From Streptomyces sp. KMM 9044 (GTDB taxonomy: Bacteria > Actinomycetota > Actinomycetes > Streptomycetales > Streptomycetaceae), in NCBI RefSeq assembly GCF_024701375.2, contig NZ_CP113910.1, positions 6,510,001-6,574,000 on the forward strand: 64,000 bases of DNA, given 5' to 3'. Every line of letters begins with the position of its first letter. Position 1 is the first letter of the stretch. The translations under genes were made by a program, and so were the position numbers. Positions 7,693 through 23,306 of this stretch are shown one piece after another. Below the pieces are notes generated by a model, which saw only the letters and a program-made list of their open reading frames with translations, made no database searches and had not been told where the DNA came from.

Positions 7693-8727
7693 TCATATCG
7701 CCCAGGTGGGAAGGTCGACGAGGGTGACGACACAGGCCGTGCACATCCAGCCCGGGCCCTGGGAGATCAACAGTACGTGGTCACCGGGAGCCACCTCGCG
7801 CGTACGGACCAGGTGCTCCAGGGTGATGATCACGTCGGCGCCGCCCACATGCCCGATGCCCCTGCCGAAGTCCCACGTGCAGCGGTCCATGGTCAGGCCG
7901 AGAGGCATCATGACCGAGTACTCGATCATCCGGCCGTCCATGTTGATCGGTACGACCTTGGCGATGTCGTCGGCGTTCAGGTCGGCGTCGACGAGTGCCC
8001 GGCGAATGACACCGAGATTGAAGAGGGTGAGTTTCTCGAGGGTCTCGGAGAGCGGGGTCTCGGTCTCGCTGTAGCGAGTGGCCCGTTCCGCCATGTCCCC
8101 GTCGTTCTCCCGGCCCTCGTCCGGCAGCAACGAGCCGTCACCACGATGCCACCGTTCGAGCTCCGGCAGGATGCCCGAACTCAGCGACCTGATCTGCGCG
8201 AAACCTTCGTCCGCGCTGATCAGGGCCGCGGCGCCGCCGTCAGCGAGGAAGTACGCCTGGCCCAGTCCCGTGTAGCGGTTCAGGCCCGTGGCGGTGAAGT
8301 TCTCACCCGACGTGAGCAGTACGGTCTCCGCCTGGGCGGCGCCCGTCATCTGCCCGACGGCCACCTCCAGGGCACCCAGCATGCCGTTGCAGCCCTGGCG
8401 CAGGTACAGCGACGAGACCGGCTCCACCTCCAGTTCGCGCAGGATGTATCCCGGTGGATAGGACCCCTGCGGGCCCTGGTAGTACACACCGCTGTGCACG
8501 TGGTCCGTGATGTCTTCCACTTGCAGCTTCGAGCGCTCCATGGCGACGCGCGCGGCGGAGATCGCGAGTTCCACGGCCGGAATGTCGTGCGCCAGGTGGG
8601 TCCCGGTCAGCCCGTTCGCCTCCACGGTCTCCTGGCTGATCAGCCCCTGGGCCACAGCCCGCTCGACGGGCTCGAACTCGTGCAGCACGACACCGAGCGA
8701 GTCGATGAACACATTGTCAATTCTCAT
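7693..8727 (-). CDS. KAS III-like acyltransferase (3-oxoacyl-ACP synthase III family)
   Basis: From the ATG at 8727 the protein has 344 residues and a FabH-like thiolase fold. The nucleophile is Cys113 in YLRQGCNGMLGAL. The two other usual FabH residues are changed: the PHQAN histidine position reads PINMDGR (Ile261), and the GNTSAAS asparagine position reads GHVGGAD (His293). Loss of the decarboxylating set with a retained Cys is typical of the ChlB3/CerJ-type subfamily that transfers acyl groups rather than condensing them. The start lies inside the 3' end of the upstream PKS I gene (11-bp overlap), implying coupled translation. I infer that it offloads the acyl chain made by PKS I onto a sugar or macrolide hydroxyl. 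A start at 8742 is also possible. Confidence 0.82.
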   Translation of the reverse strand: MRIDNVFIDSLGVVLHEFEPVERAVAQGLISQETVEANGLTGTHLAHDIPAVELAISAARVAMERSKLQVEDITDHVHSGVYYQGPQGSYPPGYILRELEVEPVSSLYLRQGCNGMLGALEVAVGQMTGAAQAETVLLTSGENFTATGLNRYTGLGQAYFLADGGAAALISADEGFAQIRSLSSGILPELERWHRGDGSLLPDEGRENDGDMAERATRYSETETPLSETLEKLTLFNLGVIRRALVDADLNADDIAKVVPINMDGRMIEYSVMMPLGLTMDRCTWDFGRGIGHVGGADVIITLEHLVRTREVAPGDHVLLISQGPGWMCTACVVTLVDLPTWAI

Positions 8728-11700
8728 CCGAGAGCCTTTCATTTCCGCCGAAATGTGAAGATGCCGAGGCGAGGAGCCGCTCGATCAGGTGCTCCGCGAG
8801 GCCCACCGGTGTGTCGAACTCGAACGCCACACTCGCCGACAGCCTCAGCCCGGTCGCCTCGACGAGGGCCGTGCGCAGTTGCAGGGCGGTGAGCGAGTCG
8901 AATCCGAGGTTCTTCAGCGGGGCGTCCGCGGCCACGCTGCCCGGTGCGGTGTGCCCGAGAACGGCACCCGCCCGGTCCCGTACCAGGTCGGTCGCCACCG
9001 TCTCCCGCTCCGCCCTGCTCATCGCCGCCAGCCGGTGCCGGAGGTCAGTGTTCTCCGCCGGGGTGTCCCGGGCCGTGCGGCGCGTGCCAGCGGGCACGAG
9101 AGCCCGCAGCACGGAGGCCACGTCGCCGGTCTCCGCGTCGCCGGTCAGTTGGGCGAAGTCCAGCCGGGACGCGATGACGAGACTGCGCCCGGCCGCCCAT
9201 GCCGCGTCGAAGAGTCCGAGACCCTGTTCCTTGACGAGCGGATGCGTTCCGCGCAGCGCCACCGGCTGCCGGTCCTTCCCGGACGGGCCCGACAGACTGC
9301 TGGCCCCGGTCCACAGACCCCACGCGATCGAGGTGGCGGCGACACCCCGGGACCGCATGTGGTGGGCGAACGCGTCCAGGAAGGTGTTCGCCGCCGCGTA
9401 GTTGGCCTGTCCCGGACCGCCCAGGATGCCGGCGAACGAGGAGAACAGCACGATCTGGCGCACCCCTGCCTCGCGGACCAGTTCGTACAGGTTCACGACC
9501 GCGTCCACCTTGGGGCGCAGCACCTTGCTCAGGCGCTCCGCCGTCAGAGACGGGAGGATCCCGTCGTCCGCCGCGCCCGCCGTGTGCACCACGGCATCGA
9601 TCCGCCGGTCCGCGAGCAGGCCGGCCAGGGCTTCTCGGTCCGCCACATCGCAGGCAGCCACCTGGACCCGGGCCCCGAGCTCCGTCAGTTCGGCCTCCAG
9701 GACCGCAGCCTGAGGCGCGTCCGGCCCCTGACGGCTCGTCAGCAGCAGGTCCTTCACACCGTGCTCGGTCACCAGGTGACGGGCTATCGCGGAGCCCAGC
9801 ATGCCCGTCCCGCCAGTGATCAACACCGTACCGTCCAGGCCGACGTCCAGCCTCGGGAGAGCAGTGCCCGGTAGGAGGCGGGCCATCCGCGGGACCCGTG
9901 TCGTCCGCCCGCGCAGCGCCCACTGCGGCTCCGTGGAGGACACCACGCGGTCCAGGGCGCGCCAGGTGGGCTTGGCGAGGTCGGTGTCCACGAGCGCGAA
10001 GCGGTCCGGGTACTCCGTCTGCGCGCTGCGGATCAGACCCCAGATGCCGGCTCCCGCGAGGTCGAGCGGTGACGCGTCGTCGGGCCCGGCCACCGCGGGG
10101 ACGGCACCACTGGTGAGGAACACCAGCCGGGAGCGGTCGAAGACCGGTGTGTTTACCCAGGCTCGGGCTGTCTCCAGGGCACGGACCGTCGTGGCGTGGA
10201 CGGCGACCACCAGTTCCTGCCCGGACAGCTCGCCGTACTTCTCCAGGAAAGGGGCCACGACGACGTCGGGGACGTCTCGGCCCCCCTCCACTGCGGCTGT
10301 CAGCGCTGCCAGGTCCGGGTAGGTCTCCGTGTAGCGTCCCGCCGTCATCAGCGAGGACCGCATGCGCACCCGGTCCTCGCCCACGATGGCCCATGTGGCG
10401 TCGGCGTCGGAGGTGTTCGCCCGCGTGTCCACGGCGGTCCACTCGATGCCGAACACGCTGTCCTGCTGCGCCACGTCCGCGGCCCTGAGCACCTCACGCG
10501 CAACGGGTTCGAGCCGCAGGGCCGGGACCGAGAGAACAGGGGCTCCGGTGGCGTCCGCAGCGGTCAGCGACACCGAGCCGTCCGGCCCCGAGGAGACCCG
10601 GGCGCGCAGGATGGAGGCGCCGGACGCGTGCAGTGACACCTCCCCCCAGGCCCGTACCCGCAAGGATGCGGCGGTCTCGAGCGCGACGCCCTTCATACCC
10701 GCCAGGCTGAGCAGGGCCTGTGCCAGCACCGGGTGGAGACCGAACCGCCGTGCCTCCTCACGCAGCGCGTCCGGTACGGAGATCTCCGCGAACACCTCGC
10801 TGTCCCGTCGCCACACGCCGTGTACGGCGGAGTGCACGGACCCGTACTCCAGGCGCAGTTCGGGCTCGGGCATCGGGAGGGCGTCCGCGGGCGGCCAGGC
10901 CTCCAGATCCCAGTCCGGCTCGGCTGCCGCCGCGACCAGCTCACCCGTCGCGTGGCAGGTCCACGGCAGCCCCAGGACGTCGTCGCCGCGCCGGGAGTGC
11001 ACCAGGACCGCGCGTACGCCGGGCTCCTCACCCTCGCCGACCGTGACGCGGACCTGAACGGCGCCGGACCCCGGCATCACGAACGGTGCCTGCGCGGTCA
11101 GGGCACGCAGTCGGCTCCTGCCCAGCTGCTCACCGGCCGAGAGGGCCAACTCCGCGGCGAGCCAGTCGAGTTCCCGCTCTACACTCTCGGTGCCCTCATC
11201 CGTCGGCCAGGCGAGCTTGCCCGCCGAAAGCCGGCCGGTGAACACCACCGTCTCGGTGCCGGGCAGTTCCACGGCCGCACCCAGCAAGGGATGCGAGGTG
11301 GGGACCGCGCCCAGCCCGGACGCACCGCGAGAGGTGCCCGACGGTGTGTTGAGCCAGTGGTGGGTGCCTTGGAAGGGGTAGGTGGGGAGGTCGGGGTGGA
11401 GGGGTGGGGTGGTGGGGCGGAGGGTGATGCCGTGTGTCCATGCGGTGGTGAGGGCGTGGGTGAAGTCGTGGGTGTCGCCGTGGTCGCGGTGGAGTGTGGC
11501 GAGGACGGTGGGTTCTTCTGTGAGGTTGTCGAGGGTTTGGAGTGTTTCCTGGGTCGGGAGGGTGAGGACGGGGTGGGGGCTGACTTCGATGTAGGCGGTG
11601 ATGCCTGCTTGGGCGAGTGTGTGGGTGGCGGCTTGGTAGTCGACGGTGTGGCGGAGGTTTTGGTACCAGTAGTCGGCGTCGAGTTCGGTGCCGTCGACGG

Positions 11701-14700
11701 GGCCGCCGGTCAGTGAGGAGTAGAAGGGGAGTTCGCCGGTGTGTGGTGTGACGGGTGCGAGTGTTTCGAGGAGTTGGTCTTTGATCGCTTCGACGTGGGA
11801 GGAGTGGGAGGCGTAGTCGACGGGGACGCGTCGGAAGCGTGTCTGGTGTTTTTGGCACCAGGTGGCGAGTTGGTCGAGTGCGTGTGCGGGGCCGGAGAGG
11901 ACGGTGCTGGCGGGGCTGTTGACTGCGGCGATGTCCAGTCCGAGGTCGGTGGCGATGGTTTCGGCTTGGTGTCGTGGCAGTGCCAGGGATGTCATGCCGC
12001 CGTTGCCGGCTATGTGGGCGATGAGTTGTGATCGCAGGGCGACTACGCGTGCGCCGTCGGAGAGGGTGAGTGCGCCGGAGACGGTGGCGGCTGCGATTTC
12101 GCCTTGTGAGTGTCCGATGACTGCGGCGGGGCGGATTCCTGCGGCGTGCCATTGTGCGGCGAGGGAGACCATGACTGCCCAGAGTGCGGGCTGGACGACG
12201 TCGACGCGGTTGAAGTCGGGTTGGTCTGGTTCGCCGCGTAGTACGGCGAGCAGGTCCCAGTCGACGAAGGGTTGGAGTGCCTGGCGGCATTCTTGGAGGC
12301 GTTGTGCGAAGGGGCCGTTGTCGTCGAGGAGTTTGACGGCCATGGTGGGCCATTGGGCGCCCTGGCCGGGGAAGACGAGTGCGGGGTTGCCGAGGGGGCG
12401 GCCGGTGCCGCGCATCACGCCGGGCTCGGTGGCTGTTCCGGTGTCGAGGGCAGCGTCCGTGGTGGCGAGTGTGCGCAGGCGTGTCAGGAGTTCGGTGCGG
12501 TTGGTTGCGGTGATGGCGGCGCGGTGTTCGAACATGGTTCGTGTGCCGGTGAGCATGCGTGCTGCGGTGTCGGTCGGCAGGTCCGGGTAGCGTTCCAGGA
12601 AGTCCGCCATTCGCCCGGCCTGGGCCCGCAGCGCGCCCTCGCCACGTCCCGACAGCAGCATCGGGACCATCGTGTCGGGTGTTTGGGGAGCGGCCGTGGG
12701 AACGTGTTCGGCGGGTGCCTCCTCCAGGATCAGGTGCGCGTTCGTACCACTGATCCCGAACGACGAGACGCCGGCGCGGCGCGGTGTGCCGGTGCGCGGC
12801 CAGGGTTCATTCTCCGTCAGCAGTCGGGCTTGGCCTGTGTCCCAGTCGACGTGGGGTGAGGGTGCGTCGATGTGGAGGGTGCGTGGCAGGGTGTCGTGGT
12901 TCATGGCCATGACCATCTTGATGACGCCGGCGACGCCTGCGGCGGCCTGGGTGTGGCCGATGTTGGACTTCACCGATCCGAGCAGGAGGGGGTTTCCGGC
13001 TGGTCGGTCCTGGCCGTAGGTGGCCAGGAGTGCCTGGGCTTCGATGGGGTCGCCGAGGGTGGTGCCGGTGCCGTGTGCTTCGACGGCGCTGATCTCGGCG
13101 GGGGTGAGGCGGGCCTGGGCCAGGGCGGTGCGGATGACTCGTTGTTGTGCGGGGCCGTTGGGGGCGGTGAGGCCGTTGGAGGCGCCGTCCTGGTTCACGG
13201 CGGAGCCTCGTACCACGGCGAGTACCGGGTGTCCCAGTCGTTGTGCGTCCGAGAGTCGTTCCAGCAGGACCAGGCCGACGCCCTCGGCGAAGCCGGTGCC
13301 GTTCGCCCCGGCGGCGAACGCCCGACACCTACCGTCGGAGGACAAGGCGCGCTGTCGGCTGAAGGCGGTGAACGTACCGGGCGTCGCTATGACGGTGGCG
13401 CCGCCCGCGAGGGCGAGGGAGCACTCGCCCTGCCGCAGTGACTGCGCCGCCAGATGGATCGCCACCAGCGACGACGAACACGCCGTGTCCACCGTGATCG
13501 CCGGCCCCAGCAGCCCCAGCAGATACGAAAGCCGACCGGAGATCACACTGGTGGCGTTGCCCGTGAGGAGCATGCCGTCCAGCCCCTCAGGGGCCTCGTG
13601 CAGCAGGGTCGAGCCGTACTCCTGGGCGATCGCGCCGACGAAAACGCCGGCCGTGCTGTTGCCGAGGGACGTCGGGTCGATGCCCGCGCGCTCGAAGGTC
13701 TCCCAGGCCGTCTCCAGCAGCAGCCGCTGCTGCGGATCCATCGTCAGAGCCTCACGCGGCGATATACCGAAGAACGCCTCGTCGAACCGCCCGGCGCCCT
13801 CCAGGAAGCCACCGTTGAGGGAATAGGACGTGCCCGGCTTGTCCGGGTCGGGGTCGTACAGGGTGTCCAGGTCCCAGCCGCGGTCGGTGGGGAACTCGCC
13901 GATCGCGTCGGTTCCGGACCGCAGCAGCTCCCACAGGTCCTCCGGGCCGGCGACCCCACCGGGCAGGCGGCACCCCATCGCGACGACGGCGATGGGGTCG
14001 GCGTCCGTCGTGGCGCTTGCCCGGAGCGCCGGGACGGATGCCGCTGCCGTGGCTCCGTCGCGGCTCTCGGCCAGGTGCTCCGCCAGGACCTGCGGGGTCG
14101 GATAGTCGAAGACGACGGTCGGGGCCAGCCGGAGACCGGTCGCGGTGTTGAGGCGGTTGCGCAGCTCGACCGCGGAGAGCGAGTCGAAGCCGACATCCTT
14201 GAACGCGCTGTCGGCGCGTACCGCCTGCGGCGACTCGTGTCCCAGGACCGCTGCGGCGTGCCGGCGCACCACGTCGAGCAGGGCGCGTTCGGCCTCCTGT
14301 GACGAGAGTCCGGCGAGCCAGGCGCCGGCGTCCTCCGCGGCACCGGATCCGCCGGCGGCGGTGCGGCGCGTGACAGCGCGGACGAGACCGCTCAGCAGGG
14401 TGGGCACCCCGCCGGACCGCCGCCGCAGGGCGGCGTGGTCGAAGCGCGCGGCGACGAAGGCGGCACCTTGGCGGGCGATGGCGGCGTCGAGAAGCGCCAG
14501 TCCCTGATCGGCGGCGAGCGGCCGGACGCCGTTGCGGGCGATGCGGACGCGGTCGGTGGTACCCAGATGCTCGGTCAGGCCGCCGTCCTCCCAGAGGCCC
14601 CAGGCCACCGCGGTGGCGGGCAGCCCGAGCGAGCGCCGGTGCTCCGCGAGGGCGTCGAGGAAGGCGTTGGCCGCGGCGTAGTTGGCCTGTCCGACGCCGC

Positions 14701-17700
14701 CGAGCGTGCCGGCGACGGACGAGAACAGGACGAAGTGGGTCAGGTCGGCGTCGCGCGTGAGGTCGTGCAGGTGCAGCGCCGCGTCCACCTTGGGACGCAG
14801 AACGGCGTCGACCTGTTCCGGGGACAGACCGGATACCGTCCCGTCGTCGAGGACGCCGGCGCTGTGCACCACGGCGGTCAGGGGCCGGTCGAGGCCGTCG
14901 AGCACAGTGGCCAGGGCGTCCCGGTCGGCCACGTCGCACGCTTCGACGGTCACGGACGCGCCCAGGGCGGCGAGTTCGTCGATCAGGTCGGCGGTGCCCT
15001 CGGCTGTGGGGCCGCTTCTGCTCAGCAGCAGCAGGTGGCGGGCGCCGTGCGTGGCGGCCATGTGCCGGGCGACGAGCCGGCCCAGGCCGGTGGTCCCGCC
15101 GGTGACGAGGGTGACGCCCTCGGGATCGAGCGTCCGCGGTTCTCCGAGCGCCAGGCCGGCCGCGCGCGTCAGGCGGGGGACCAGCACGAGGCCGGCGCGA
15201 ACGGCAGTCTGCGGCTCACCGGACGCGACCGCGGCGCGCAGTCCCGCCATGTCCGCGGCGCGCAGTCCCGCCATGTCCGCGGCGCCGGCCGGGCAGTCCG
15301 CCTCGGGGGCCAGGTCGATCAGGACGAGGCGTCCGGGGTGTTCGGCCTGCACCGTCCGGGCGAGACCCCACACGGGGGCCCCTGCCAGGTCGGCCACGCC
15401 GGACGCGGGATCGGCCGCCATGGCGCCACGGGTCGCGAGGACGAGACGAGTGGCCTCGTACCGTTCCTCGCGCAACCAGCGCTGCACCTGTGCGAGGGCG
15501 ACCTGCACGCGTGTTCGGGCCGCGACCGCGGTGTCGGCGGCTTCCGGCCCGGGACGGTCACAGAGCAGGAGCAAGGTGTCGGGCGCGGGCCCCGTGGTGT
15601 CCGCCGCCAGGTCCGGCACACCGTGCGTGTCGAAGCCCGCGTCGGTGAGGACGGAGGCGGAACGCGCGGCGTCGGGTCCCACCGCGAGCCATCGGCCCGC
15701 GGGCTGCGGCACGGGTGGGGTTGTCACGGGCTTCCACTGCGTATGCAGCAGCATCTGCCGGACGGTCTCGTCCGCTGCGGATGCCGCTCCTTCCCCCATG
15801 GGCCGCGTCGACAAGGTGGTCACGGAGACGACAGGGGCTCCTGCCGGGTCCACGGCGAGCAGCGCGACGCCCTCCGGCTCCGGCCAGGTCAGCCGGACTC
15901 GCAGCGTGGTGGCACCGGAAGCGTGCAGCCGTACACCGTGCCAGGAGAACGGCAGGCTGAGCGGCTGGGACTCGTCCTTGTCCACCTCGCCCAAGACGTC
16001 CGGGTGGAGGGCCGCGTCCAGCAACGCCGGGTGCAGCCCCCAGTCGTCGGTGCTCTCCCCTTCGGACAGGGCGATCTCGGCGAAGACCTCCGAGTTTCTG
16101 CGCCACATGGCTCGCAGGCCTCGAAACGCGGGGCCGTAGCCGTACCCGGCCTGGGCCATCCGCTCGTAGGCGTCCGCGACGGGCACCGCCTCCGCGCCCT
16201 GCGGTGGCCAGGTCGCCAGCGCTTCGGCGGCGTCGGTGTCATCCGGCAGGGCGGGGACCAGGAAGCCGCGGGCGTGCCGGGACCACAGTGGGTCGGCCGT
16301 CGACTCGGCGCCGCTCTGTGGCGCGGAGTGGACGCTCACCGCACGGCGTCCCGACGCGTCCGGCGCCCCGACGGTCAGCTGCAGGCTGACGGTCTGCTGT
16401 GCCGCGACCACCAGCGGGGTCTCAAGGACCAGTTCTTCCAGACAGGGGGTGCCCACCTCGTCACCCGCCCGGATCGCGGCCTCGACGAAAGCCGTTCCGG
16501 GAAACAGGACGGACCCGCGCACCACGTGGTCGGCAAGCCATGGATGCGTGGCCGCGGAGACCCGCCCGGTGAACACCACACCTTCCTCGTCCGCGCGGTG
16601 GATCGCGGCGCCCAGCAGCGGGTGAACGACGGGGCGCAGGCCGAACGACTGCGGGTCGCCGCCCGACGGTGTGTTGAGCCAGTGGTGGGTGCCTTGGAAG
16701 GGGTAGGTGGGGAGGTCGGGGTGGAGGGGTGGGGTGGTGGGGCGGAGGGTGATGCCGTGTGTCCATGCGGTGGTGAGGGCGTGGGTGAAGTCGTGGGTGT
16801 CGCCGTGGTCGCGGTGGAGTGTGGCGAGGACGGTGGGTTCTTCTGTGAGGTTGTCGAGGGTTTGGAGTGTTTCCTGGGTCGGGAGGGTGAGGACGGGGTG
16901 GGGGCTGACTTCGATGTAGGCGGTGATGCCTGCTTGGGCGAGTGTGTGGGTGGCGGCTTGGTAGTCGACGGTGTGGCGGAGGTTTTGGTACCAGTAGTCG
17001 GCGTCGAGTTCGGTGCCGTCGACGGGGCCGCCGGTCAGTGAGGAGTAGAAGGGGAGTTCGCCGGTGTGTGGTGTGACGGGTGCGAGTGTTTCGAGGAGTT
17101 GGTCTTTGATCGCTTCGACGTGGGAGGAGTGGGAGGCGTAGTCGACGGGGACGCGTCGGAAGCGTGTCTGGTGTTTTTGGCACCAGGTGGCGAGTTGGTC
17201 GAGTGCGTGTGCGGGGCCGGAGAGGACGGTGCTGGCGGGGCTGTTGACTGCGGCGATGTCCAGTCCGAGGTCGGTGGCGATGGTTTCGGCTTGGTGTCGT
17301 GGCAGTGCCAGGGATGTCATGCCGCCGTTGCCGGCTATGTGGGCGATGAGTTGTGATCGCAGGGCGACTACGCGTGCGCCGTCGGAGAGGGTGAGTGCGC
17401 CGGAGACGGTGGCGGCTGCGATTTCGCCTTGTGAGTGTCCGATGACTGCGGCGGGGCGGATTCCTGCGGCGTGCCATTGTGCGGCGAGGGAGACCATGAC
17501 TGCCCAGAGTGCGGGCTGGACGACGTCGACGCGGTTGAAGTCGGGTTGGTCTGGTTCGCCGCGTAGTACGGCGAGCAGGTCCCAGTCGACGAAGGGTTGG
17601 AGTGCCTGGCGGCATTCTTGGAGGCGTTGTGCGAAGGGGCCGTTGTCGTCGAGGAGTTTGACGGCCATGGTGGGCCATTGGGCGCCCTGGCCGGGGAAGA

Positions 17701-20700
17701 CGAGTGCGGGGTTGCCGAGGGGGCGGCCGGTGCCGCGCATCACGCCGGGCTCGGTGGCTGTTCCGGTGTCGAGGGCAGCGTCCGTGGTGGCGAGTGTGCG
17801 CAGGCGTGTCAGGAGTTCGGTGCGGTTGGTTGCGGTGATGGCGGCGCGGTGTTCGAACATGGTTCGTGTGCCGGTGAGCATGCGTGCTGCGGTGTCGGTC
17901 GGCAGGTCCGGGTAGCGTTCCAGGAAGTCCGCCATTCGCCCGGCCTGGGCCCGCAGCGCGCCCTCGCCACGTCCCGACAGCAGCATCGGGACCATCGTGT
18001 CGGGTGTTTGGGGAGCGGCCGTGGGAACGTGTTCGGCGGGTGCCTCCTCCAGGATCAGGTGCGCGTTCGTACCACTGGCGCCGAACGACGAGACGCCGGC
18101 GCGGCGCGGTGTGCCGGTGCGCGGCCAGGGCTGGGGTTCGGTCAGGAGCTGGAGCCGGTCTGCGTTCCAGTCGACGTGGGGTGAGGGTGCGTCGATGTGG
18201 AGGGTGCGTGGCAGGGTGTCGTGGTTCATGGCCATGACCATCTTGATGACGCCGGCGACGCCTGCGGCGGCCTGGGTGTGGCCGATGTTGGACTTCACCG
18301 ATCCGAGCAGGAGGGGGTTTCCGGCTGGTCGGTCCTGGCCGTAGGTGGCCAGGAGTGCCTGGGCTTCGATGGGGTCGCCGAGGGTGGTGCCGGTGCCGTG
18401 TGCTTCGACGGCGCTGATCTCGGCGGGGGTGAGGCGGGCCTGGGCCAGGGCGGTGCGGATGACTCGTTGTTGTGCGGGGCCGTTGGGGGCGGTGAGGCCG
18501 TTGGAGGCGCCGTCCTGGTTCACGGCGGAGCCTCGTACCACGGCGAGTACCGGGTGTCCCAGTCGTTGTGCGTCCGAGAGTCGTTCCAGCAGGACCAGGC
18601 CGACGCCCTCGGCGAAGCCGGTGCCGTTCGCCCCGGCGGCGAACGCCCGACACCTACCGTCGGCCGAGAGTGCCCCCTGGCGGCTGAACTCCACGAGCGC
18701 GCCGGGCGTCGACATGACGGTGGCGCCGCCCGCGAGGGCGAGGGAGCACTCGCCCTGCCGCAGTGACTGCGCCGCCAGATGGATCGCCACCAGCGACGAC
18801 GAACACGCCGTGTCCACCGTGATCGCCGGCCCCAGCAGCCCCAGCGTGTAGGAGATGCGGCCGGAAGCGACGCTGACGGCCGAACCGTTGCCGAGGTAGC
18901 CCTCCAGGTTCTCGGGGGCACGCTCGTGGAGGCCGGGGCCGTAGCCCCCGTGCATCACACCGGCGAAGACACCAGTCCGGCTGCCCTTCAGCGAGACCGG
19001 GTCGATGCCCGCGCGCTCGAAGGTCTCCCAGGCCGTCTCCAGCAGCAGCCGCTGCTGCGGATCCATCGCCAGTGCCTCACGCGGCGATATACCGAAGAAC
19101 GCCTCGTCGAACCGCCCGGCATCGTCAAGGAACGCGCCCTGCCGGGCGGACGACTTTCCACCGCCGCGGCTTTCGTCGTCCAGGAGCCGGTCCAGGTCCC
19201 AGCCCCGGTCGTCGGGGAGCGGGCCGACCGCGTCGGTTCCCGCCATGAGCAGGTCCCACAGCTCCTTGGGCGTCCGGGTGCCGCCGGGCAGACGGCAGCC
19301 CATCGCCACGATGGCGACGGGCTCGTTAGGCTGCCCCGTCACAGCCGTTCCCTCCGCGTCCTCAGTGGCCTCCGCGCCCGCAGCGCCGAGGCCACCCTGT
19401 GCCAGGCCGTCGAGGTACCGCGCGAGGGCCTGCGGGGTCGGGTAGTCGTAGGCCACAGCGGCCGAGAGACGGTGGCCGGAGGCGGCGGACAGCCGGTCGC
19501 GGAGGGTCACGGCGGACAGGGAGGTGAAGCCGAGTTCGTGCAGGGGCCGATCGGCGGTCACCTCCTCGGAGGGCAGACCGAGGACGTCCGCGACCACGGA
19601 GCGCACCAGGCCGAGCAGACCGTGCTGTGCCGTCAGGAGGACGGCGCCGGCGGACACCGGGGGCACGGCGGACGCTGTTCCGGACGGGCCTTCGGCGGCC
19701 AGATCGGGGCGGACGTTCACCGACGGATTGACGACGAGCAGCGTTCCGGGCAGCTCGGCCAGCCGCCGACGGGCGGTCTTCCCCGTCGATGTACGCGGGA
19801 CGTCGTCGATGATGTGGAACTCGTCGGGCACCTTGAAGTAGGAGAGTTCCCGGCGGCAGGTCTCCAGAAGCTCGCGGGCGTCGATGCCTCCGGGGCCCTC
19901 CGGTCCCGGCACCAGGTAGGCGACGGGCACTTCGCCCAGTACGGCGTGGGGCTTGCCCGCCACCGCGGCCTCGGCCACGCCGGGCACCCCGGCCAGAACG
20001 CGCTCCACCTCTGCGGGGTGGATGTTCTCGCCGCCGCGGACGATGAGTTCCTTGACCCGGCCGGTGATGGTGAGCAGGCCGGCCGGGTCCTGTCGGCCGA
20101 GGTCACCGGTGCGGTACCAGCCGTCCACGAGTACGGCCCGGGTCGCTTCCGGGTCGTTGTGGTAGCCGGCCATGATGCCCGGACTGTGCACCCAGATCTC
20201 GCCCTCCTGCCCGGCGGCCACCTCCTCGCCGGTCCGCGGGTCCGCCAGACGCAGCGTCAGGCCGGGCAGCGGGGTGCCGCAGGTGCCCAGGACGCGTGGC
20301 CCGGTGGGCGCCTGAGTGGTGATGGCGCCTCCGGTCTCGCTGCTGCCGTAGCTGTCCAGGAGGCGGATGCCGAAGGCGTCTTCGAAGGCTTCGTGCAGCG
20401 CGGGCGGGCAGGCCGAGCCGGCCGCCATGCACACCCGCAGCTCCGGCAGTTCGAGCCCGCGCTCGCGCGCGAGGTCCACCATGCGGTGGTAGGTGGTGGG
20501 GGAGCCGACGAGGAAGGAGGCCTGCTCGCTGCGGACGGTCTCCATGATCTCGTCCGGGGCCGAGCCCTCCATGATGTGGGCAGAGGCACCGACGGCCAGC
20601 GTGGCGAGTACGCCGATGTTGTGCGAGGCGGCGTGGTACAGCGGCATCGGCCACACGAGGCGGTCGGTCGCGGACAGACCGAGGATCGGCTCGGTGCACG

Positions 20701-21298
20701 CGGCCGTGGCCCACAGGGACTTGCGCTGGGTCGAGACCACGCCCTTGGGGCGTCCGGTGGTGCCGGAGGTGTACAGGATCCAGGCCGTCTCGTCCAGGTC
20801 CAGGTCGTCCCGCGCGTCGGCGGGCGGCGAGGTGACGGCGAGGTGCTCGAAGTCGGTGGCACCCGCGATGGGCTCGGTGGCACCGACGACGATCAGGCCG
20901 CAGTCCAGGCCGCTGCTCCGAACGGTCCGTACCACCTGGGGTATCTGTGCCGCGCCGCTGATCACCGTGCGGGCGCCGCTGTCGACCAGGTGGTGGGCGA
21001 GCTCGGTGTCGGAGGACCGCGGGTCGACCGGCACACCGACGGCTCCCGCGCGCGTGACGGCGAGATAACTCTCCACCATCTCGACCCGGTTGCCCATGCG
21101 GAGCAGGACGCGGTCGCCGCGGCCGACCCCGAGTGCGGCGAGGTGCCCGGCCAGGAACCGGGTGCGCCGCTCCAGAGCGCCGTAGGTGACGGAACGCCGA
21201 GAGTCCTGGAAAGCCCGCTCGTCCGCTCGCTGCAAGGCGTGGTCCGTGAGGATCTGGTGCAGCGGGCGGACAAGTGCGACAGAGGGCTCTTCGGTCAC
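8717..21298 (-). CDS. PKS I: modular type I PKS, CoA ligase-ACP / KS-AT-DH-KR-ACP / KS-AT-DH(inactive)-KR-ACP
   Basis: A 4193-residue synthase. Loading: AMP-binding CoA ligase (1-520) with YTSGTTGRPKG near 176, YGSSETGG, YRTGDLG, RVKELIVRGGENIHP and PRTSTGKTARRRL, then an ACP with LGFTSL (about 591; Thr replaces the usual Asp). Module 1: KS 660-1085 (DTACSSS), AT 1195-1525 (GHSQG, YASH, so methylmalonyl), DH 1556-1835 (HVVRGSVLFP and LLDAALH intact), KR with LDD near 2148 and NYAAAN (B1 type), ACP Ser near 2369. Module 2: KS 2430-2860, AT 2970-3300 (YASH), a DH-like domain lacking both the HxxxGxxxxP motif and the catalytic Asp, KR with ADD (B type), ACP near 4131. There is no thioesterase. 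The GTG at 21298 follows GGAAG by seven bases; the open frame upstream to 21571 lacks family sequence. The starter acid is unknown; such ligase loading domains take carboxylic acids such as aryl or cyclohexyl acids. The product is probably a short acyl chain. Confidence 0.93.
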   Translation of the reverse strand: MTEEPSVALVRPLHQILTDHALQRADERAFQDSRRSVTYGALERRTRFLAGHLAALGVGRGDRVLLRMGNRVEMVESYLAVTRAGAVGVPVDPRSSDTELAHHLVDSGARTVISGAAQIPQVVRTVRSSGLDCGLIVVGATEPIAGATDFEHLAVTSPPADARDDLDLDETAWILYTSGTTGRPKGVVSTQRKSLWATAACTEPILGLSATDRLVWPMPLYHAASHNIGVLATLAVGASAHIMEGSAPDEIMETVRSEQASFLVGSPTTYHRMVDLARERGLELPELRVCMAAGSACPPALHEAFEDAFGIRLLDSYGSSETGGAITTQAPTGPRVLGTCGTPLPGLTLRLADPRTGEEVAAGQEGEIWVHSPGIMAGYHNDPEATRAVLVDGWYRTGDLGRQDPAGLLTITGRVKELIVRGGENIHPAEVERVLAGVPGVAEAAVAGKPHAVLGEVPVAYLVPGPEGPGGIDARELLETCRRELSYFKVPDEFHIIDDVPRTSTGKTARRRLAELPGTLLVVNPSVNVRPDLAAEGPSGTASAVPPVSAGAVLLTAQHGLLGLVRSVVADVLGLPSEEVTADRPLHELGFTSLSAVTLRDRLSAASGHRLSAAVAYDYPTPQALARYLDGLAQGGLGAAGAEATEDAEGTAVTGQPNEPVAIVAMGCRLPGGTRTPKELWDLLMAGTDAVGPLPDDRGWDLDRLLDDESRGGGKSSARQGAFLDDAGRFDEAFFGISPREALAMDPQQRLLLETAWETFERAGIDPVSLKGSRTGVFAGVMHGGYGPGLHERAPENLEGYLGNGSAVSVASGRISYTLGLLGPAITVDTACSSSLVAIHLAAQSLRQGECSLALAGGATVMSTPGALVEFSRQGALSADGRCRAFAAGANGTGFAEGVGLVLLERLSDAQRLGHPVLAVVRGSAVNQDGASNGLTAPNGPAQQRVIRTALAQARLTPAEISAVEAHGTGTTLGDPIEAQALLATYGQDRPAGNPLLLGSVKSNIGHTQAAAGVAGVIKMVMAMNHDTLPRTLHIDAPSPHVDWNADRLQLLTEPQPWPRTGTPRRAGVSSFGASGTNAHLILEEAPAEHVPTAAPQTPDTMVPMLLSGRGEGALRAQAGRMADFLERYPDLPTDTAARMLTGTRTMFEHRAAITATNRTELLTRLRTLATTDAALDTGTATEPGVMRGTGRPLGNPALVFPGQGAQWPTMAVKLLDDNGPFAQRLQECRQALQPFVDWDLLAVLRGEPDQPDFNRVDVVQPALWAVMVSLAAQWHAAGIRPAAVIGHSQGEIAAATVSGALTLSDGARVVALRSQLIAHIAGNGGMTSLALPRHQAETIATDLGLDIAAVNSPASTVLSGPAHALDQLATWCQKHQTRFRRVPVDYASHSSHVEAIKDQLLETLAPVTPHTGELPFYSSLTGGPVDGTELDADYWYQNLRHTVDYQAATHTLAQAGITAYIEVSPHPVLTLPTQETLQTLDNLTEEPTVLATLHRDHGDTHDFTHALTTAWTHGITLRPTTPPLHPDLPTYPFQGTHHWLNTPSGGDPQSFGLRPVVHPLLGAAIHRADEEGVVFTGRVSAATHPWLADHVVRGSVLFPGTAFVEAAIRAGDEVGTPCLEELVLETPLVVAAQQTVSLQLTVGAPDASGRRAVSVHSAPQSGAESTADPLWSRHARGFLVPALPDDTDAAEALATWPPQGAEAVPVADAYERMAQAGYGYGPAFRGLRAMWRRNSEVFAEIALSEGESTDDWGLHPALLDAALHPDVLGEVDKDESQPLSLPFSWHGVRLHASGATTLRVRLTWPEPEGVALLAVDPAGAPVVSVTTLSTRPMGEGAASAADETVRQMLLHTQWKPVTTPPVPQPAGRWLAVGPDAARSASVLTDAGFDTHGVPDLAADTTGPAPDTLLLLCDRPGPEAADTAVAARTRVQVALAQVQRWLREERYEATRLVLATRGAMAADPASGVADLAGAPVWGLARTVQAEHPGRLVLIDLAPEADCPAGAADMAGLRAADMAGLRAAVASGEPQTAVRAGLVLVPRLTRAAGLALGEPRTLDPEGVTLVTGGTTGLGRLVARHMAATHGARHLLLLSRSGPTAEGTADLIDELAALGASVTVEACDVADRDALATVLDGLDRPLTAVVHSAGVLDDGTVSGLSPEQVDAVLRPKVDAALHLHDLTRDADLTHFVLFSSVAGTLGGVGQANYAAANAFLDALAEHRRSLGLPATAVAWGLWEDGGLTEHLGTTDRVRIARNGVRPLAADQGLALLDAAIARQGAAFVAARFDHAALRRRSGGVPTLLSGLVRAVTRRTAAGGSGAAEDAGAWLAGLSSQEAERALLDVVRRHAAAVLGHESPQAVRADSAFKDVGFDSLSAVELRNRLNTATGLRLAPTVVFDYPTPQVLAEHLAESRDGATAAASVPALRASATTDADPIAVVAMGCRLPGGVAGPEDLWELLRSGTDAIGEFPTDRGWDLDTLYDPDPDKPGTSYSLNGGFLEGAGRFDEAFFGISPREALTMDPQQRLLLETAWETFERAGIDPTSLGNSTAGVFVGAIAQEYGSTLLHEAPEGLDGMLLTGNATSVISGRLSYLLGLLGPAITVDTACSSSLVAIHLAAQSLRQGECSLALAGGATVIATPGTFTAFSRQRALSSDGRCRAFAAGANGTGFAEGVGLVLLERLSDAQRLGHPVLAVVRGSAVNQDGASNGLTAPNGPAQQRVIRTALAQARLTPAEISAVEAHGTGTTLGDPIEAQALLATYGQDRPAGNPLLLGSVKSNIGHTQAAAGVAGVIKMVMAMNHDTLPRTLHIDAPSPHVDWDTGQARLLTENEPWPRTGTPRRAGVSSFGISGTNAHLILEEAPAEHVPTAAPQTPDTMVPMLLSGRGEGALRAQAGRMADFLERYPDLPTDTAARMLTGTRTMFEHRAAITATNRTELLTRLRTLATTDAALDTGTATEPGVMRGTGRPLGNPALVFPGQGAQWPTMAVKLLDDNGPFAQRLQECRQALQPFVDWDLLAVLRGEPDQPDFNRVDVVQPALWAVMVSLAAQWHAAGIRPAAVIGHSQGEIAAATVSGALTLSDGARVVALRSQLIAHIAGNGGMTSLALPRHQAETIATDLGLDIAAVNSPASTVLSGPAHALDQLATWCQKHQTRFRRVPVDYASHSSHVEAIKDQLLETLAPVTPHTGELPFYSSLTGGPVDGTELDADYWYQNLRHTVDYQAATHTLAQAGITAYIEVSPHPVLTLPTQETLQTLDNLTEEPTVLATLHRDHGDTHDFTHALTTAWTHGITLRPTTPPLHPDLPTYPFQGTHHWLNTPSGTSRGASGLGAVPTSHPLLGAAVELPGTETVVFTGRLSAGKLAWPTDEGTESVERELDWLAAELALSAGEQLGRSRLRALTAQAPFVMPGSGAVQVRVTVGEGEEPGVRAVLVHSRRGDDVLGLPWTCHATGELVAAAAEPDWDLEAWPPADALPMPEPELRLEYGSVHSAVHGVWRRDSEVFAEISVPDALREEARRFGLHPVLAQALLSLAGMKGVALETAASLRVRAWGEVSLHASGASILRARVSSGPDGSVSLTAADATGAPVLSVPALRLEPVAREVLRAADVAQQDSVFGIEWTAVDTRANTSDADATWAIVGEDRVRMRSSLMTAGRYTETYPDLAALTAAVEGGRDVPDVVVAPFLEKYGELSGQELVVAVHATTVRALETARAWVNTPVFDRSRLVFLTSGAVPAVAGPDDASPLDLAGAGIWGLIRSAQTEYPDRFALVDTDLAKPTWRALDRVVSSTEPQWALRGRTTRVPRMARLLPGTALPRLDVGLDGTVLITGGTGMLGSAIARHLVTEHGVKDLLLTSRQGPDAPQAAVLEAELTELGARVQVAACDVADREALAGLLADRRIDAVVHTAGAADDGILPSLTAERLSKVLRPKVDAVVNLYELVREAGVRQIVLFSSFAGILGGPGQANYAAANTFLDAFAHHMRSRGVAATSIAWGLWTGASSLSGPSGKDRQPVALRGTHPLVKEQGLGLFDAAWAAGRSLVIASRLDFAQLTGDAETGDVASVLRALVPAGTRRTARDTPAENTDLRHRLAAMSRAERETVATDLVRDRAGAVLGHTAPGSVAADAPLKNLGFDSLTALQLRTALVEATGLRLSASVAFEFDTPVGLAEHLIERLLASASSHFGGNERLSDEN
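11341..13320 (-). repeat. PKS I direct repeat, copy 2 (module 2 KS end-AT)
   Basis: This ~2-kb block matches 16666-18645 at a constant offset of 5325 bp with very few differences, for example a short patch around 12745-12840. It covers the C-terminal half of KS2, the linker and AT2. The plus strand is G/T-rich, so the coding strand is unusually C/A-rich compared with the rest of the gene. Confidence 0.9.
16666..18645 (-). repeat. PKS I direct repeat, copy 1 (module 1 KS end-AT)
   Basis: Partner of 11341-13320. The two differ mainly just after the KS signature GTNAHLILEE (GAS versus GIS before it) and at the TEPQPWP/TENEPWP segment. The constant offset means no indels over ~2 kb, consistent with recent duplication or gene conversion. 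Confidence 0.9.
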
Positions 21299-21628
21299 AG
21301 CTCGACTTCCAATCACATGGACAATGGACGGACTCTGACAACCCGGGCCGCCATCCTCCAGGCACCGCCGGCACATGGAGCGGCAGAGATCTCCCCCGAC
21401 CTTTGGCAAGCAGTATGTCGAGGGGCGCGCTAGGTCTTTTTCTAAACCCGGCAGGGTTGACCTCGATTCGTCTGTGGGCTGGTCGGTTCCGTTAGCCTGG
21501 CGTCTCGCCCCAGTTTGTCCTGTCGGTCGGCTGGGGGCCTTCGCGTGCGCTGCGGGGGCGTCGGGTTCCACGGGCCCGAGGATGGTGCAGTCCTCTCCTT
21601 CCGGTGTCGTCGGGGTGGTGAGCGGCCG
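21299..21628. promoter_or_regulatory. upstream region of PKS I, transposon flank
   Basis: 330 bp between the PKS I start and the transposase stop. It must carry the PKS I promoter (minus strand) unless transcription enters through the transposon. The only AT-richer patch is at 21431-21445 (TCTTTTTCTAAA). I could not identify a consensus -35/-10 pair or an operator with confidence. Confidence 0.4.
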
Positions 21629-23236
21629 TCAGGTGAGGGCCGGGAGTTGGTGGGCGCGTTGCCAGGCGGTGGTGAACGCGGTGGCCCAGGGCCAGGTGTG
21701 GTCGAGGTGGAGGATGCGTCGGCGGGCGTGGGCGGTGGGGCGGGCGGGCAGGTGGTACAGCTTCCCGCGGATCGTTTCCGGTTGTGCGGCGGCGAGTTCG
21801 GGCTCGTCATGCAGGAGGAGGAGCCGGGTCCAGGCGTCGAGGTCGGCGGCGAGCGCGGCGGCCGGCACCCAGGCGACGTTCAGCTGCCAGGATTTGGACG
21901 GCAAGAGCCCCAGCCCGATCCGCTTGATCGCTTTCACGCGGTCCTCGACCTCGGCGTGGTCGCGGTAGAGGGCGTCGACGAACCAGGCCTGACCCGAGCC
22001 GGACACACCCGAAAGCCCCTGGTGGGCGGGGATATTGGTGGCGACGATCTGGTACCGCCAGCCGGTGTGGACTCTGCTGCTCAATTCGGCGAGCGATCAC
22101 GTGCCGTGCTTTCAGGGCTCGGCCGCGCCCGGCCTGCCTGCATCTGCGACGCGCTCTGAAGGCCGTATCGGCACGGCGTCATCACGCCGGGTAATTGCGC
22201 AGCAGAGTCGGTGTGCTTCTCAAAGTCGGTCAGCTTCTTCAGATCGCGCCGCGAGGGCTTGACCCGCCGTACGATCAGGCGCATCCCCGCGGGCCAGCCG
22301 GTCAGGTCGCGCACTCCGGTCAGCTCGGCGGCCTGGTAGGAGATCTTGTCGCCATCGGGGCCGGTGATTTCGTGGACCGTGCCGTCCTGCCGCAGCGCGG
22401 TGGCCCACACCTTCTCGGGCAGCAGTGCGATGGCGGCCTCGTCGGTGGTGTTGATGGCCCAGCCGGTCACCCAGCGCACCCGGCGCCGGCTGGTGGTCAG
22501 GCTCTGCAGGTGCTCCAGCAGGGCGTGGCTGAAGGCAGCCCCGTCGATACGGACCAGCACTTTCGACCACAGCGGCAGCGGGAGTTGCCGCAGCGCGGCC
22601 GTCAGCACCGTCCGGTGGTCGGCGACGTCGTTGGAGGTGGCGTTGCCGGGCCGTAGCAGCATCGCGACGCACTCGCGGGTGTTGGCCACCCACGCGCCCA
22701 GCGGATGATGCCCGAAGCCGCCCTTGAACGTGCCGGCCGCGCGCTCCTTCTTGCTGGTGCAGGTCACGAGGGTGGCATCGAGGTCCAGGACGTACCAGCC
22801 AGTCAGCTCCCGCCCGCCCACCGCGATCCAGGGAAACCCGCCGGGCCGCAGGGCCAGCAGGGTCCACACCACCCGGCGTATCGCGGCCCGCACGCGCTCG
22901 ACGCGTGCGAGAACCGGCCCGTCGATCGCCTCCAGCGTGCGCCACAGCGTGCTGTCGGAGACCGGCCGAGGGAACAACGCCCGCCAGTGATACTGGAGTT
23001 GCTCGGCTTCCAGGACGTTGGCGGCCCCCAGTGCGATCGCGCACACCAGCTGGACCAGTGCCATGCCCCGATCCCGCCACCCCGGCCCGATGCCCTGCGG
23101 CAGGGCCGCGCCCAGAGCGGCGGTCGGCCCGACCCGGTCGGCAACCTTGCGCAGCAGCACACCCCCCGGCGTGGCCGATCAGGTTCTTGCCGTCGGCCCG
23201 CACAGCGAGCCGGTGGTCCCAGCCGGTACTCTTCAC
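21629..23236 (-). pseudogene. IS1380-family transposase, doubly disrupted
   Basis: The protein starts at GTG 23236 (KSTGWDHRLAVRADGKNLIG), typical of actinobacterial IS1380 transposases, and ends with LHLDHTWPWATAFTTAWQRA at 21629. Two lesions break it. First, a run of six G (complement of 23162-23167) where five are expected shifts the frame between IGHAGG and VLLRKVADR. Second, a 140-bp element plus a 6-bp duplication at 22064-22215 splits FEKHTGWRYQIVATN. With both removed the frame reads through. Retained segments include WYVLDLDATLVTCTSKKE, FKGGFGHHPLGAW and LWSKVLVRIDGAAFSHALLE. The insertion separates PKS I from the rest of the cluster. I could not place the outer ends of the insertion sequence. 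Confidence 0.88.
22070..22209. mobile_element. 140-bp MITE-like element with 17-bp terminal inverted repeats
   Basis: The left end starts GACTCTGCTGCTCAATT and the right end, read inwards on the minus strand, starts GACTCTGCTGCGCAATT (16 of 17 matches). It is flanked by a 6-bp direct duplication, GGTGTG, at 22064-22069 and 22210-22215. Removing the element and one duplication restores the IS1380 transposase codons DFEKHTGWRYQ exactly. It has no coding capacity, so it would need a transposase supplied in trans. The parent family is unknown to me. Confidence 0.88.
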
Positions 23237-23241
23237 CCGTT

Positions 23242-23306
23242 GGGTGCCTCTTCTCTGCGACGGTTTTGATCTAGACAATCCAGATCATCGCAGGTAAGAG
23301 GCACCC
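23242..23306. repeat. 19-bp inverted repeat in the 5' region of the IS1380 transposase
   Basis: The arms GGGTGCCTCTTCTCTGCGA (23242-23260) and the complement of 23288-23306 match at 17 of 19 positions around a 27-bp AT-richer spacer containing TCTAGA. It may be the terminal region of the insertion sequence, with an internal inverted copy that shields the transposase from read-through. No matching end was found beyond the transposase stop. Confidence 0.6.

Follow-up and report, generated by a model that had tools for sequence, protein, structure and literature searches.

A one-sided CAAAG word marks the insertion sites of a Streptomyces MITE and of its likely IS1182-family partner

The window, a stretch of 64,000 nucleotides of Streptomyces sp. 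KMM 9044 DNA with a G+C content of 72%, carries on its minus strand the remnant of an IS1380-family transposase (21629..23278), which is interrupted by a 140-bp element and frameshifted near 23,160. The element (22070..22209, plus strand) begins with a left terminal inverted repeat, GACTCTGCTGCTCAATT (22070..22086, plus strand), and ends with a right one, GACTCTGCTGCGCAATT (22193..22209, minus strand), and it is flanked by the left and right copies of a target-site duplication, GGTGTG (22064..22069 and 22210..22215). To the right of the duplication a 5-bp spacer, CTTCT (22216..22220), leads to the one-sided target word CAAAG (22221..22225, plus strand), and the site reads in the order GGTGTG-CTTCT-CAAAG. 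An open frame of 4284 residues on the minus strand (8717-21571), which reads like a modular polyketide synthase, starts near the IS1380 remnant.

An earlier note, made from the letters of this stretch, had described a MITE-like element without coding capacity, nested in a dead IS1380 transposase and flanked by an exact duplication, and this description was borne out. The terminal inverted repeats, re-checked in the window sequence, span 17 bp with 16 matches, the two 6-bp copies of GGTGTG are identical, and the longest stop-free run in the 140 bp is 46 codons. Excision of the element together with one duplication restores, as had been claimed, a 467-codon minus-strand frame in which DFEKHTGWRYQ spans the junction. 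Comparison with an uninterrupted IS1380, which had been proposed as a check, was made with a relative on plasmid NZ_CP109357.1 (L295) that aligns at 85% over 1549 bp and has a 500-codon frame. The alignment contains five single-base gaps and none at the MITE junction; hence the 140 bp does not belong to that IS1380. The frameshift near 23,160 is unrelated to the MITE insertion, and because of this separate lesion the IS1380 copy looks dead independently of the MITE. The second frameshift is one of four subjects on which the earlier note was silent, the others being the CAAAG rule, the sister families and the tandem stacking. Together with the copy number and the shared ends given below, these sequence comparisons support the reading of 22070-22209 as a MITE nested in an IS1380 transposase remnant.

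The genome-wide search that had been suggested for the 140-bp sequence returned 45 further copies. In the genome (7.43 Mb, 3 contigs), a 37-mer internal to the element gave 46 matches and its reversed-pattern control none, and a BLAST census of fetched loci likewise counted 46; we call these copies subfamily A, and the letters of the window element are identical to the genome-wide A consensus. The end sequence GACTCTGCTGC occurs 147 times, compared with 2 for the reversed control, and a related probe detected sister MITEs with like ends (71 matches, control 0). With six partial elements and every partial IS hit set aside, 117 full-length elements in 91 arrays remain, namely 46 A, 47 B, 20 C, one D of 80 bp and three IS, and 66 arrays hold a single element, 24 hold two and 1 holds three. 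Between pairs of copies, A elements diverge on average by 1.3%, B elements by 7.8% and C elements by 3.7%, and the 41 A copies listed are 98-100% identical. The outer 6-mers are identical in 67 of the 91 arrays and differ by one mismatch in 12 more. Well over 100 MITE copies are a notable load for one bacterial genome.

Outside this genome the elements were rarely met. When the best 2 candidates per genome were scored in 294 other genomes, a full-length match to A was found in one genome of the same genus (G272, 77%) and short partial matches in eight; with the best 8 candidates per genome (fewer in two), B gave short matches in 11 of 99 relatives, of 25-47 bp among the matches listed. The plasmids and phages searched held no match to A. 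Given that only best candidates were scored, the absence of A and B from other genomes is provisional.

The flanks of the arrays follow one rule: the 6-bp duplication is followed by 5 bp and then by CAAAG or a variant. This order holds in 78 of 88 unique arrays (the 91 minus three duplicates), where (C/G)AAA is one-sided in 76, two-sided in 2 and absent in 10. Counted from the element end, CAAAG stands at offset 11 in 66 of the 91 arrays, whereas no other position between offsets 0 and 23 has it in more than 1 array. At 74 unique clean sites, the columns of the word hold C 73, A 72, A 72, A 73 and G 63 times (A 10 times in the last), with an information content of 1.0-2.8 bits compared with at most 0.3 bits in all other columns; the variants are CAAAA, CAAAC and GAAA. 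Exceptions include an IS copy at C3:99570, an A element at C1:4338286, where four extra bases precede the duplication and the spacing is kept if counted from the duplication, and two B elements with CCAAG and CGAAG at the word position. Single elements take the two orientations relative to the word 11 and 13 times for B, 15 and 5 times for A and 4 and 12 times for C, so that orientation varies, in keeping with the near symmetry of the ends. Moreover, with at least 10 of 12 complementary positions as the criterion for a palindromic target, none of 64 own sites qualifies (null 1.4%).

A search for insertion sequences with matching termini, also recommended earlier, yielded one with 17/17 ends, and it belongs to the IS1182 family. 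With these ends, the further copies of A and the absence of the 140 bp from the intact IS1380 relative, neither outcome that the earlier note had named as refuting came about. We use the local names IS1 (C1:425929-427778) and IS2 (C1:5233215-5235069) for two IS1182-family copies of this genome. IS1, 1850 bp long between C1:425929 and C1:427778, has ends GACTCTGCTGCGCAATT that match the right end of A at 17/17 positions and its left end at 16/17. Its transposase is split over two frames covering positions 11-343 and 345-485 of the IS1182 model NF033551, with scores of 148.7 and 108.5 bits, each below the cut-off. IS2 has one end mismatch to the right end of A (16/17) and an intact transposase (C1:5233309-5235042), which scores 310.4 bits against the same model (cut-off 270) and contains the domains DUF772 and DDE_Tnp_1_6. 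IS2 itself obeys the CAAAG rule, as judged by eye do all five further IS1182 copies of this genome with intact-looking ends (four CAAAG, one GAAAG), three of which retain matching 6-bp flanks. From these shared ends and targets, an IS1182-family insertion sequence is the likely partner of A. Beyond the ends, A has scattered words of 9-13 bp alone in common with IS1 and IS2, and is therefore not a simple internal deletion of either. Because the only IS found in the genome with exactly matching ends is a single frameshifted copy, A may have been moved by IS2, by a copy since lost or by the product of a programmed frameshift. At C1:425929-427925 (L078:7430-9426), GCCGCC links the exact-end IS to a B element, the outer 6-mers differ and CAAAA stands at offset 11 on both outer sides; this array is perhaps a hybrid of two insertions.

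In an alignment of 26 transposases, D146 and E513 are invariant and D378 is at least 90% conserved, and our reading is that these residues form the putative DDE catalytic triad. The AlphaFold model of the IS2 transposase has a mean pLDDT of 78.4 and shows weak similarity to Tn5 transposase (E 8e-4, TM about 0.2); no sequence relative was found in the PDB at E 0.01, and the model gave no pointer to the target-reading part of the protein. An Ala-Glu repeat is seen in the transposases of L147 (residues ~315-335) and L148, and its length varies between IS copies. As we read the alignment, the region around residues 255-275 and 315-338 is longer in the transposases of the clade that follows the AAA rule.

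The target rule extends beyond this genome. In G272, all eight pairs of IS ends that lie ~1.87 kb apart obey it by eye (CAAAG 2, CAAAA 3, CAAAC 3), and the 140-bp element with 77% identity to A has CTTTG-ATTGA-CGCAAT on one side and CGCAGT on the far side, with one mismatch in the duplication. We then took 85 loci of related transposases without hand selection, of which 68 had both ends located and 17 had no end pair. NAAA at offset 11 was present in 19 of 24 relatives with at least 51.5% identity, a line that was drawn after the data were seen and a group that includes four G272 copies, compared with 0 of 44 below the line; of those above it whose duplication measures at least 5 bp, 14 of 16 have the word. 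Among the relatives above the line, L191 lacks NAAA at offset 11 and shows a 7-bp duplication, then 5 bp and then CAAAG, L280 has CAAAG 7 bp away from the duplication, and L192, L195 and L196 have neither a full duplication nor the word. Two copies on Rhodococcus plasmids (57-58% identity) follow the AAA rule. A palindromic target was found in 1 of the 24 relatives above the line (L205, without duplication; null 0.4%) and in 17 of the 44 below it (null 1.2%), or 14 of 24 of the latter with a duplication. These counts supersede earlier hand-chosen lists, which gave 18/24 and 0/24 for the rule and 0/16 and 12/24 for palindromes, and from which loci without two ends and 20 further loci had been omitted, as had, from the palindrome list, closer relatives without a full duplication.

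Other target modes occur among these relatives. Five IS copies in four hosts (L206, L207, L210, L247, L292) insert 11 bp from CTACA into what resembles the C-terminal portion of a transposase gene of the IS3 family, so that this clade may be an IS hunting another IS. Distant IS1182 relatives (L211, L217, L218, L250-L254, L258) lie in palindromes with duplications of 6-10 bp near the centre, and several of them show an identical 5-mer on either side, 5 bp beyond the duplication. A rule of GGCCC at +5 on both sides was tried for the palindrome group; several loci fit, the register shifts elsewhere, and palindromy alone is claimed. Genome G088 holds four copies of a palindrome-group IS.

In a maximum-likelihood tree of 66 rows, rooted at the midpoint only and with target labels set by eye, all 27 AAA rows group with four rows of unassigned target at 100/100, the five CTACA rows group at 100/100, and the palindrome rows and further unassigned lineages fall outside. 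Four rows labelled palindrome (L208, L209, L293, L263) have fewer than 10/12 complementary positions, and L280 is labelled CAAA with its word 7 bp away. As judged from these sequences, target mode clusters by transposase lineage, mostly within one genus.

Taken together, the data suggest that A is very probably a non-autonomous MITE that is mobilised in trans by the DDE transposase of one IS1182 clade and placed by CAAAG. In the mechanism that we propose, one protomer of a symmetric transposase complex would read the word, the near cut would fall 5 bp from it and the far cut another 6 bp away, comparable to the cutting of a type IIS restriction enzyme at a distance. The word and the spacer would be left intact, so that the same site could be used again and each new element would separate the previous one from the word, so that the order within an array would reflect age. 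More widely, this IS1182 clade may have evolved, probably from palindrome-directed ancestors, to read an asymmetric half-site CAAA with a 6-bp staggered cut at a fixed 5 bp, and, because the half-site would not be consumed, the MITE stacks would record age order; we hold this wider proposal to be about evenly balanced between true and false.

We infer that the transposase itself, and not a host protein, would read CAAAG. Alternatively, the transposase could have no word specificity of its own and be recruited by a host factor that binds CAAAG or by a local property of the DNA there. In favour of this, the word is short and rich in A, whereas the window has 72% G+C; moreover, in the available text of PMC10132070, a contact is proposed between ISAjo2-type IS (IS1202 family) and XerC bound at pdif sites at a distance of 5 bp. 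However, a host factor shared by these elements would predict neither the clustering of target modes on the transposase tree nor the AAA rule in the two Rhodococcus plasmid copies, which counts against this explanation, and we consider it unlikely, although it is the best of the alternatives.

In 20 of 25 multi-element arrays, the junction between elements equals an outer duplication of the same site. A adjoins the word in all 19 A+B dimers, B being the more diverged family, and in all 17 after two dimers with a common foreign junction were removed (two-sided p 1.5e-5). C adjoins the word in 4 of 4 A+C dimers, two of which have identical flanks. At C1:2848167, the proximal element is C-like (91% to C) and the distal one is A (99%), and this array contradicts a strict age order unless that lineage stayed active. 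In total, 21 of the 46 A share an array with B, whereas ~2 would be expected if 1000 sites were open, a number guessed from 8 words in the 64-kb window; occupied sites thus seem to be used more than expected, by tolerance or by attraction.

The tandems could also have arisen by duplication or recombination of arrays instead of repeated insertion. Four B-GACCTG-A dimers have the same junction and orientation, three of them with other outer duplications, which speaks for this origin, as do the common B variants: all four combinations are present for 93 of 120 pairs of them, which points to mosaic exchange among MITE copies. Transposition of B-GACCTG-A as a composite unit was also considered; the B parts of the four dimers differ at 6-13 positions and are mostly nearer to other B copies, and these dimers may stem from unit transposition or from recombination. 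Recombination at unrelated sites would not, however, produce junctions that repeat the outer duplication of their own site, as most arrays do, and we therefore regard this origin as improbable, somewhat more so than a host factor. The tandem pattern as a whole fits re-insertion at an intact word.

Two further alternatives have very little to commend them. One is that insertion is random and elements survive next to CAAAG alone; in its favour, 24 of 76 sites lie in coding-like frames compared with 72% of random window positions. Yet 0 of the 7 CAAAG words of the window lie in such frames too, so that the location of the word may itself explain the depletion, and selection-driven depletion from genes is not claimed. 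Fitness selection would not account for a spacing that is fixed to the single base and is found again in distant IS, which makes such a relic of selection highly improbable. That the 140 bp serves the host as a functional repeat and only resembles a MITE, such as a regulatory RNA or terminator hairpin, is equally hard to credit in spite of its stable fold (-75.9 kcal/mol, z -4.84), because MITEs with long inverted arms are expected to fold back, most arrays have target duplications, no Rfam family reached threshold (one match, 18.4 bits compared with 40), and none of 38 pairs in 46 distinct B sequences is changed on both sides. A selected RNA fold was likewise not supported: for the B consensus, pairing is kept in 98.3% of cells with no two-sided changes, and of 52 pairs compared between A and its 77% relative, 2 are compensated and 11 are broken.

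Bacterial MITEs such as MITEAba12 are short, non-autonomous and derived from IS; the present elements differ from them in having an IS1182 partner, word-directed sites and ordered tandem stacking. The partner resembles the IS1182 family (NF033551; IS1272, ISPse1) in its transposase, which scores above the model cut-off where an intact copy was tested and has DUF772 and DDE_Tnp_1_6, and in its length of about 1.85 kb and 17-bp inverted ends. In the available text of PMC5678879, IS1272 targets inverted repeats without duplication and the IS1182 family is described as heterogeneous, and the accessible part of PMC3281130 lists ISPse1 with 4 bp. Compared with what these excerpts give for IS1272 and ISPse1, our elements have a 6-bp duplication, no palindrome in the own sites and a one-sided CAAAG at 5 bp; because of the heterogeneity described there, the missing palindrome is not treated as defining. 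The closest functional analogue found is the ISAjo2 group of the IS1202 family, which, in the same partial text of PMC10132070, makes a 5-bp duplication and inserts 5 bp from XerC sites in one orientation. Both systems thus combine a short duplication with insertion 5 bp from a recognised site. The ISAjo2 group differs in its transposase family, in a site that is the protein-binding dif/pdif and in its fixed orientation, whereas here a word of 4-5 bp is used in both orientations. The available extracts of PMC4438569 and PMC7188733 hold nothing on targets. Among the top-ranked papers of the open-access literature, which does not cover ISfinder, we found no report of a CAAAG rule for IS1182 or of IS1182 MITEs in Streptomyces. 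A MITE with an IS1182 partner is of a known kind, and the target rule would be new.

The elements would offer a compact DDE transposase that relies on a word of 4-5 bp to set its insertion point to the exact base, and the change of target mode between related clades makes the gain of target specificity by a DDE enzyme directly testable. Tn7 and CRISPR or casposon integration are also placed by sequence outside the duplication, and repeated use of one site gives order; the enzymes are different. Stacks may date transposition bursts, and, if the proposal is true, they would parallel, for a transposon, the leader-proximal order of spacers in CRISPR arrays and form a readable record of bursts.

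The same A insertion with identical near flanks was seen at C3:3912-4051, C3:104810-104949 and C1:7313606-7313745 (L014, L013, L015), that is, near both ends of the 108,853-bp contig C3 and near the chromosome's right end. This looks as though C3 could be a linear plasmid and its terminal repeats had exchanged with the chromosome end.
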